Positions 13,316 through 16,590 of a stretch of 64,000 nt of DNA are shown piece by piece. Both the position numbers and the translations under genes were made by a program. The notes under the pieces are model-generated. The model saw only the letters and a program-made list of their open reading frames with translations, made no database searches and had not been told where the DNA came from. This stretch comes from Acidobacteriaceae bacterium (GTDB lineage Bacteria; Acidobacteriota; Terriglobia; Terriglobales; Acidobacteriaceae). Position 1 is the first letter of the stretch. Each line of letters starts with the position of its first letter. The stretch is from NCBI GenBank assembly GCA_025352065.1, contig JANXUC010000092.1, positions 1 to 64,000 of the forward strand. The letters are read 5' to 3'.

Positions 13316-15388
13316 ATGACCTTCAACGTACTCCGGGCCCTGGAGTTGCTGCGTATTGGAACTGGATTGCCTGGGGCGAATTTTCGCGACGGGCAGGAAG
13401 ACGCGATCCGCTATGTCGTCCAGGGGCGCGGGCGGTTGCTGGTGGTGCAGAAGACGGGGTGGGGCAAAAGCCTGGTCTACTTCATCGCGAACAAGCTACT
13501 GCGCGAGGCCGGAGCTGGTCCCGCCCTGCTGGTGTCCCCACTGCTGTCGCTGATGCGCAACCAGATTCTTGCTGCGGAACGGATGGGAGTCCGCGCGAGG
13601 ACCATTCACTCGGACAACACGGATGTGTGGGCGCAGATCGAAGCGTCCGTGCGGCGCGACGAAGTGGACATGCTTCTGATTTCGCCGGAGCGGCTGGCCA
13701 ACGAACACTTCCGCAGCCAGGTGCTGGCGGGCGTAGCGGGCAAGATCGCGCTCTTGGTAATCGACGAAGCGCACTGCATCTCCGATTGGGGGCATGACTT
13801 TCGCCCACACTACCGTTTGCTGGAGCGCATCGTGCGCCAGCTTCCGCCGAATATGAGGCTGCTGGCGACGACTGCGACCGCGAACGACCGCGTGATGAAG
13901 GATTTGACCGCGGTGCTGGGTCCCAAACTTGAGATTTCGCGCGGCGATCTGAACCGACCGTCCCTGACGCTACAAACCGTGCGCTTGCCAGGTCAGGCCG
14001 AGCGACTCGCATGGTTGGCTGAGCAATTGGAGGCTCTGCCAGGGCACGGCATTGTCTACACGCTAACGGTGAGGGATGCGGAGCGCGTAGCCGGATGGCT
14101 CAAATCCTGCGGGTTAGAAGTGGAAGCCTATACCTCCGAGAGTCTAGCCCGTCCAGAACTGGAACAATCCTTGCAGGACAATCGGGTGAAGGCGCTGGTG
14201 GCGACGGTGGCTTTGGGTATGGGTTCCGACAAGCCCGACCTCTCGTTTGTGATCCACTACCAGTCGCCCGGGTCTGTGATTGCCTATTATCAGCAAGTTG
14301 GAAGAGCAGGGAGGGCACTGGACGCGGCGTACGGCGTATTGCTGGCGGGAAACGAGGATGCGGAGATTCACGATTATTTCATCCGGACAGCCTTTCCGAC
14401 CCGAGACGAGGCGCGGAGCGTTCTGGCGGCACTAGAAGCCGCCCATACAGGTTTATCGATTCTGGAATTGATGAATCGCGTGAACATTGGCAAGAACCGG
14501 ATCGACAAAGCTCTGGAGCTGATGTCGTTGGAATCGCCCGCTCCGGTCATCAAGCAGGATGCAAAGTGGCTTCTCACCGGTGCCAAACTGAGCGATGAGT
14601 TTTGGGAACGAGTGGAGGGCATCACTTGGGTGCGGCGCTGCGAACAGAGGCAGATGCGGGAATATGTGGCTCTTACTTCGGGGCACATGGAGTTTCTGAT
14701 CCGGGCTCTGGATGGCGATCCCTCGACGGTGCACGAGCCGCTCTTGCCGCCTCTAACAACGGAGGTCAGTCCGGCGCTGGTGCAGGAGGCGGTGGACTAC
14801 CTGCGCCGGAACAGCTTGGACTGGGAGCCGCGCAAGCTATGGCCCGCCGGAGGCATGCCAAAATACCAACTGAAAGGCCGAATCGCCGCCACCGAGCAGG
14901 CCCAGCCTGGCCGGGTGCTGTGTGAGTGGGGTGATGCGGGCTGGGGCGAGCTGGTGCGCAAAGGTAAGTATGACGATGGCCGCTTTGCCGACGAACTGGT
15001 TAGCGCTTGTGCGAAATTACTGAGAGAATGGAATCCGCAACCTGCGCCAAGATGGGTCACGTGCGTCCCCTCCCTGCGGCATCCAGGCTTGGCTCCAGAT
15101 CTGGCGCGCCGACTTGCCGCGTCCCTGGGGCTGCCGTTTCGTGGGGTGTTGCAAAAAATCGGGGAGCGTCCGGAACAAAAAACCATGGCCAATAGCAATC
15201 AGCAGGCGCACAACGTGGACGGCACGCTTGCCGTGACGGCGGAGAGTCTGCCGGGTAGCCCCGTCTTGTTGGTGGATGACATGGTGGATTCGCGGTGGAC
15301 GATGACGGTGGCGGCGTGGCTGCTGCGGACGCACGGCGCGGGGGAAGTCTGGCCGCTGGCGCTGGCGTCCACGGGGCATCGGCGATGA
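13316..15388 (+). CDS. RecQ-family helicase fused to PRTase-like domain
   Basis: A 690-residue protein. Residues ~20-360 form a RecQ superfamily 2 helicase: Walker A QKTGWGKS (~45-52), DEAH box (150-153) in [19 protein letters not shown], and QVGRAGR (327-333). The region corresponding to the RecQ zinc domain (~430-460) lacks the cysteine cluster. The C-terminus (~590-690) ends in [20 protein letters not shown], matching the PRPP-binding loop of type I phosphoribosyltransferases (ComF-like), with TGxT changed to SRWT. The stop overlaps the start of the DprA-like gene (ATGA). A PRTase paired with DprA recalls ShosTA; a role in defence is inference. Confidence 0.85.
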
Positions 15389-16590
15389 GACCCGCACAGA
15401 CACTCTCTCCCAACACGCAGGCGACGCTGCTGCTGACCGCGCCAATGTTGACGGGAAACGCCAGAGAGGATACCGCTGCCTCCGACCGGCTGACTCCCGG
15501 CGAATACAAGCGTCTGGCGCGCACTCTTCTGCAAATGGAAATGCAGCCGGGAGATTTGCTGGAGCCGGGGAGTGCAGATCGTTTGTCGGCCTCGCCATCG
15601 GTTGACGGGCCGGTTGTCGAAAAAGAGCGGCTGCAACGGCTGCTGGCGCGCGGGTTCTTGTTGAGTCAGACCGTGGAGCGCTGGCATACGCGAGGCCTTT
15701 GGGTTGTGAGCCGCGCCGATGCGCTCTACCCGACAAGATTGGAAACTCTTCTGCATGAGGACGCCCCGGCGCTTCTTTTCGGGTGCGGAGATATCTCGCT
15801 TTGTGAAACAGGAGGTCTGGCGGTGGTGGGCTCGCGCGATGTGGATGAATCGCTGATTGAGTACACGCGGGCCATTGGCGGCTTGGCGGCCAAAGCCGGG
15901 AAAACGCTAGTTTCGGGCGGAGCCCGCGGCATCGATCAGGCAGCCATGCGAGGCGCCATTGAAGAGGGCGGACCGGTTGTGGGCGTGTTGGCGGATAGCC
16001 TGGAAAAGACCGCATTGAACCGCGAACACCGCAACCTGATTCAGGATGGCCAGCTTGTTCTGGTTTCACCCTACGACCCCGGCGCGGGCTTTAATGTTGG
16101 CAACGCTATGCAGCGCAACAAGCTGATCTATGCTTTGGCGGACACGGCGCTGGTCGTCAGTTCCGATTACGAAAAAGGAGGAACCTGGGCCGGCGCGGTG
16201 GAGCAACTGCGGAAATTAAAATTTGGGCCGGTTTATGTCCGTTCTACCGGCGACCGAGGCAGGGGGTTGGAGGCTCTGGAACAGAAGGGCGCGCTGCCAT
16301 GGCCGAACCCGACCGACGGGAAGAGCCTCTTGGCGGTGTTGGCGGAGCGTCCGGTTGTACAGGCTGTGGCGGACTGGGGAATGGCGCGGCAGTGGCTGCT
16401 TGGGCTGGATGTTCCACAAAGGAAAACAAAAGTGACGGCGAGTCTGGCCTCCCATCTGCATGTGTCCTCTGCGCAAGCCAAGAAGTGGGTGCAGCGGGCG
16501 GTTGAGGAAGGGGTGCTGCAAAAGGGCGGCAAACCAGCGGGGTACGCCGCGAGTCGACAGCAGGCCAACTTGTTTCAGGAACTGGTGTAG
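15385..16590 (+). CDS. DprA/Smf-family protein coupled to the RecQ-PRTase gene
   Basis: A 401-residue protein with the DprA (SLOG-type) Rossmann fold: VVGSRDVDE (~148-155), [11 protein letters not shown] (~177-187), [17 protein letters not shown] (~237-253) and [11 protein letters not shown]. DprA proper binds ssDNA and loads RecA during transformation. Here it has an extended N-terminal region (~1-100) and a C-terminal winged-helix-like tail (~350-390, [19 protein letters not shown]). It overlaps the preceding gene by four bases, so the two are made together. This suggests a dedicated partner of the helicase-PRTase rather than the housekeeping DprA. Function is inferred. Confidence 0.8.

Follow-up and report, generated by a model that had tools for sequence, protein, structure and literature searches.

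The window analyzed here, a 64,000-nucleotide stretch of an Acidobacteriaceae contig, carries a two-gene unit that is, judging from its sequence, an intact member of the toxin-antitoxin family known as RqlHI in E. coli and PsyrTA in P. syringae. We put at roughly 80% the probability that this unit represents an RqlHI/PsyrTA toxin-antitoxin pair acquired by horizontal transfer. The features on which the argument draws are as follows.

13316 to 15388, + strand: psyrT/rqlH, encoding a 690-aa RecQ-like helicase with a C-terminal PRTase domain, the predicted toxin component (PADLOC PsyrT, Pfam, identity to homologues)
13466 to 13468, + strand: codon of the Walker A lysine K51, equivalent to K49 of E. 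coli RqlH (alignment with the chromosomal E. coli RqlH)
13763 to 13765, + strand: codon of the DEAH aspartate D150, equivalent to D148 of E. coli RqlH (same alignment)
14621 to 14746, + strand: psyrT region matching the RecQ-type zinc cysteines of other RqlH proteins, cysteines missing (alignment and tree)
14936 to 15385, + strand: type I PRTase domain, PsyrT residues ~541 to 690 (AlphaFold model; ComF, ShosT, and APRT structure matches)
15266 to 15301, + strand: PRPP loop of psyrT, with D655 equivalent to D663 of E. coli RqlH (alignment)
15385 to 15388, + strand: ATGA, the 4-base stop/start overlap of psyrT and psyrA (sequence)
15385 to 16590, + strand: psyrA/rqlI, starting at the ATG at 15385 and encoding a 401-aa DprA/SLOG-family partner, the predicted antitoxin component (PADLOC PsyrA, Pfam, fold)
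15682 to 16218, + strand: SLOG (Rossmann) core of psyrA, residues 100 to 278 (Pfam DNA_processg_A over the same residues)

RESULTS

Both products match the PsyrTA family models

The PADLOC PsyrT model matched the psyrT product with an E value of 1.8e-264, spanning positions 5 to 688 of 689, and the PsyrA model matched the psyrA product nearly end to end (E = 1.1e-124), whereas the ShosA model gave only a partial match to the latter (9.9e-26). In Pfam, the psyrT product matched DEAD (1.9e-22) and Helicase_C (8.7e-13), and Pribosyltran matched it at 7.4e-06, with a score of 25.8 bits that is slightly under the gathering cutoff of 26.3; the psyrA product matched DNA_processg_A (DprA) at 1.3e-35. 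PsyrT is 47.5% identical, end to end, to its homologue on an E. coli plasmid and 68% identical to its S. meliloti homologue.

A preliminary description of this DNA had recognized a RecQ-type helicase bearing a type I PRTase PRPP loop at its C terminus and a four-base stop/start overlap leading into a DprA/SLOG gene. Coordinates and motif were both correct, and the overlap is the ATGA listed above. The same description had tied its reading to the two genes keeping company in other genomes, and they do: psyrA lies directly 3′ of psyrT in 24 of 25 loci of the genome collection, and at the sole remaining locus the sequence stops 291 bases past psyrT. The identical 4-base overlap recurs in ~16 of 24 homologous loci.

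Some individual copies depart from this pattern. On S. meliloti pSymB (L069, 8076 to 9427), psyrT is intact but its psyrA partner is apparently frameshifted near residue 265; IS elements and an integrase flank this copy. A Halanaeroarchaeum plasmid (L088, 3968 to 6049) encodes an archaeal full-length RqlH with a PRTase domain, psyrA not being detected there. In a Magnetococcales MAG (L055, 6627 to 8705), psyrT is split into two frames of 226 and 452 aa, which reflects either a pseudogene or an assembly error.

The PRTase fold and its PRPP loop

The AlphaFold model of PsyrT residues 451 to 690, built with 20 homologues, had a mean pLDDT of 84.6, and it confirmed, at the level of a predicted structure, that the C-terminal part of the protein has a PRTase fold. 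The nearest PRTase fold was that of H. pylori ComF (Z 15.1), followed by ShosT (Z 11.5 to 11.6) and many APRTs (Z ~10); the domain was also compared by Foldseek. For the PsyrA model (pLDDT 74), the best Foldseek match was ShosA (6.9e-12), followed by DprA. The comparison with ComF and ShosT that the preliminary description had proposed thus yielded the PRTase fold that it anticipated, and its view of an operon-like PRTase effector paired with a DprA-like partner agrees with the folds of both proteins.

The residues K49, D148, and D663 of E. coli RqlH are all kept in the window protein, as K51, D150, and D655, in an alignment whose reference was the E. coli chromosomal copy, the numbering of which fits the published mutants exactly. 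Across 21 homologues, L652, D654, D655, V657, S659, R660, W661, T662, and T664 of the PRPP loop were invariant, and D658 was retained in 95%. The loop is atypical, with SRWT where canonical loops usually have TGxT. On a Tsukamurella plasmid (L091, 3932 to 6040), a solitary RqlH whose partner was not detected has a degenerate PRPP loop, VVDESGTGWAVT, suggesting that its PRTase is inactive.

A zinc-cysteine-free clade spans several phyla

In the tree, the window toxin fell within a 19-member cross-phylum clade with a support of 100/100. The RecQ zinc-site cysteines were missing from all 19 members, the window protein included, and present in all 11 sequences outside the clade, E. coli RqlH included. 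These cysteines are a common RqlH feature and not a defining one for RqlHI/PsyrTA. With the zinc site lost, the coupling between the helicase and the PRTase may differ. It is conceivable, albeit speculative, that this clade, whose 19 sequences come from several phyla besides that of the host, represents a mobile subtype with altered helicase-based control of the PRTase, a plug-in cassette that shuttles between chromosomes and BREX or restriction loci and perhaps guards the latter against loss or inhibition.

The pair is a probable horizontal acquisition

Full-length PsyrT together with a high-scoring PsyrA was found in 3 of 150 genomes of the host order, namely, the host's own genome and two others (G012 and G035), with the G012 pair divided between two contig ends. 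The remaining PsyrT matches in the order cover the helicase part, and the remaining PsyrA matches are much weaker DprA-like genes. The window toxin shares 62 to 72% identity with homologues from Planctomycetota, Proteobacteria, Thermodesulfobacteriota, Omnitrophota, and Cryosericota but only 50 to 55% with the two further copies from Acidobacteriota, L065 and L067 (the latter being the G035 contig), both of which lie outside the 19-member clade. Since the pair is present in so few genomes of the order and its nearest relatives are in other phyla, we conclude from these sequence comparisons that the acidobacterium acquired it horizontally from distant bacteria.

Composition is uninformative on this transfer, since the GC3 values of psyrT (0.72) and psyrA (0.68) are within the range of their neighbors. 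An exact empty site is not definable because relatives do not keep the local gene order. In none of nine relatives did psyrT or psyrA lie beside atpC, and a search of 50,697 phage records for a phage-borne copy gave no match at an E value of 1e-50.

We considered and rejected two housekeeping interpretations. A conserved gene pair of the Acidobacteria core does not fit with the presence of the pair in 3 of 150 genomes or its absence beside atpC in the nine relatives. Nor is psyrA the housekeeping DprA gene, given that another DprA-like gene is located on contig 27 of the same genome; as the genome also encodes another RecQ-like helicase elsewhere, the pair is not the housekeeping copy of these functions.

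Genomic context of the window copy and its relatives

TA genes in a defense-type neighborhood had been the expectation of the preliminary description. Two small type II TA modules are indeed located after psyrA: in the first (16681 to 17329), a RelE-type toxin gene is paired with an antidote gene that is weakly HI1420-like, and the second is a convergent ParE/RHH module (17465 to 18069). The pair itself, however, sits 3′ of the ATP synthase operon (atpA, atpG, atpD, and atpC, the last ending at 13078). No PADLOC family was matched by any of the ten other window proteins tested for nearby defense systems, and we therefore rejected the notion of a defense island around the window copy.

Several relatives are embedded in defense loci. 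One homologue (L049) occurs with brxA, brxB, and brxC, another (L053) lies between a BrxHI-like helicase gene and pglZ, and a third (L093) lies between pglX and pglZ, all within BREX; in or beside type I restriction genes, one copy (L068) is located between hsdS and hsdR and one (L061) is beside an N-terminal MTase_I fragment. Further copies adjoin housekeeping genes. Embedding in defense loci serves as evidence of defense function, or "guilt-by-embedding" (PMC12255303).

The DNA downstream of psyrA has further features of its own. Between the two TA modules, positions 17346 to 17444 match 18160 to 18258 at 88% over 99 nt and form a degenerate copy of the 3′ end of a minus-strand gene (18123 to 18596) that in relatives is a conserved companion of a DUF3463 radical-SAM gene, and an exact 15-nt repeat (16612 to 16626 and 17330 to 17344) flanks the first module. 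The degenerate copy and the repeat look like the scar of serial insertions. An ORF at 19941 to 20543, single-copy in its own genome, has a homologue ~0.1 to 1.1 kb from atpC in 3 of 9 relatives; in the window, ~6.9 kb (13078 to 19941) containing psyrTA, the TA modules, and the radical-SAM block separates the two. Small TA toxins recur along this DNA, the minus strand having another ParE-like toxin gene at 21115 to 21381 (Pfam, 7.7e-15).

DISCUSSION

Proposed mechanism and alternative readings

The E. coli system provides the experimental background for the window pair. In extraintestinal E. coli, RqlH alone causes SOS induction, filamentation, and growth inhibition; the PRTase-pocket mutants D663A and DIVD663EVME lose this toxicity, and RqlI, a DprA homologue, relieves it and physically binds RqlH (Russell and Mulvey 2015, PMC4670107). 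Since the helicase mutants K49A and D148A are in part worse, the helicase domain helps to restrain the PRTase, and the isolated PRTase domain is not toxic (PMC4670107). For the window protein, the preliminary description saw in RecQ a putative sensor of replication or DNA intermediates. The K-12 strain MG1655 lacks rqlHI. Many actinobacterial rqlH genes occur without rqlI (PMC4670107), so PRTase toxicity is not universal. With regard to phage, PsyrTA appears among abortive-infection systems in one report (PMC10855318), and E. coli PsyrTA gave no phage protection in one native host (PMC12409345).

The window pair is very probably a toxin-antitoxin system that works as RqlHI/PsyrTA does, and we infer the activity, the trigger, and the anti-phage role of this copy along those lines. 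Its first protein would be a 3′-5′ RecQ-like helicase carrying a PRTase domain that, if unrestrained, would use PRPP on a putative DNA- or nucleotide-linked target, so that DNA is damaged, SOS is induced, and growth is arrested. The DprA homologue would bind the first protein and, together with the helicase domain, hold the PRTase in check, a restraint that would be upset by phage infection or abnormal DNA intermediates, whereupon the cell would stop (abortive infection).

We consider it unlikely that the two genes instead form a DNA maintenance or repair pair, in which the helicase, the PRTase, and the DprA-like protein act together on damaged or incoming DNA, with toxicity arising solely upon removal of the partner. 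Such a role would fit with the cooperative function on DNA proposed by Russell and Mulvey (PMC4670107), with the metabolic or Sec genes that adjoin solitary actinobacterial rqlH genes, and with the housekeeping operon beside the window copy. In contrast, defense or toxin-antitoxin cargo typically shows just such a very patchy distribution, transfer across phyla, and embedding in BREX and restriction loci. A ComF-like competence module for DNA uptake, to which the closest match of the PRTase fold and the DprA homology of the partner might point, is very improbable, given that the helicase is RecQ-like and not known to be ComFA-like, that the genome has a separate DprA-like gene while most relatives lack the pair, and that E. 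coli, which can bear the pair, is generally held not to be naturally competent (PMC4670107). The preliminary description had seen in the pair a helicase-bearing relative of ShosTA, and the kinship in logic stands, with a PRTase and a DprA homologue whose close structural matches include ShosT and ShosA; as a new ShosTA subtype, however, the pair can be dismissed with near certainty because the PsyrT and PsyrA models match it full length (for the partner, 1.1e-124 versus 9.9e-26 for ShosA), making it a case of the described RqlHI/PsyrTA family (PADLOC, PMC4670107), whose architecture is exactly the same. Rousset et al. (2022, PMC9122126) had already placed shosTA, syrTA, and rqlHI in one group of systems whose antitoxins are of the DprA type.

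The favored reading, a horizontally acquired RqlHI/PsyrTA pair, adds an acidobacterium with an intact pair to a family that moves across phyla together with its partner and is at times nested in BREX or type I restriction loci. The near-invariant PRPP loop and the zinc-free clade offer natural variants for testing how the helicase, the PRTase, and the DprA-like partner control one another.

Comparison with known systems

Among known proteins, the competence factors ComF and DprA resemble the window pair in that ComF has the nearest PRTase fold and the partner is closest in sequence to the DprA family; the window pair differs in its RecQ-like helicase fusion, its patchy presence, and the second DprA-like gene in its genome. 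In ShosTA, too, a DprA-like partner accompanies a PRTase effector, and the folds of the window proteins match those of ShosT and ShosA. The ShosTA PRTase toxin is not known to carry a RecQ helicase, whereas the window PRTase is fused to a RecQ-like one, and the ShosT chains in the PDB comprise ~400 residues, compared to 690. Both window proteins match the PsyrTA family full length, a comparison made with the family models; the P. syringae system differs in its host phylum. In E. coli RqlHI, the genes likewise overlap or are tightly coupled, come in the same order, and encode a RecQ-like helicase with a PRTase domain and a DprA-like partner; all three mutated key residues are shared, and identity is ~48% for the helicase and ~42% for its partner, but RqlH keeps the zinc cysteines that the window toxin lacks. 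The window pair is therefore a kind of system that has already been described, and what is added here, the clade without zinc cysteines and the occurrence of relatives within BREX loci, is modest.
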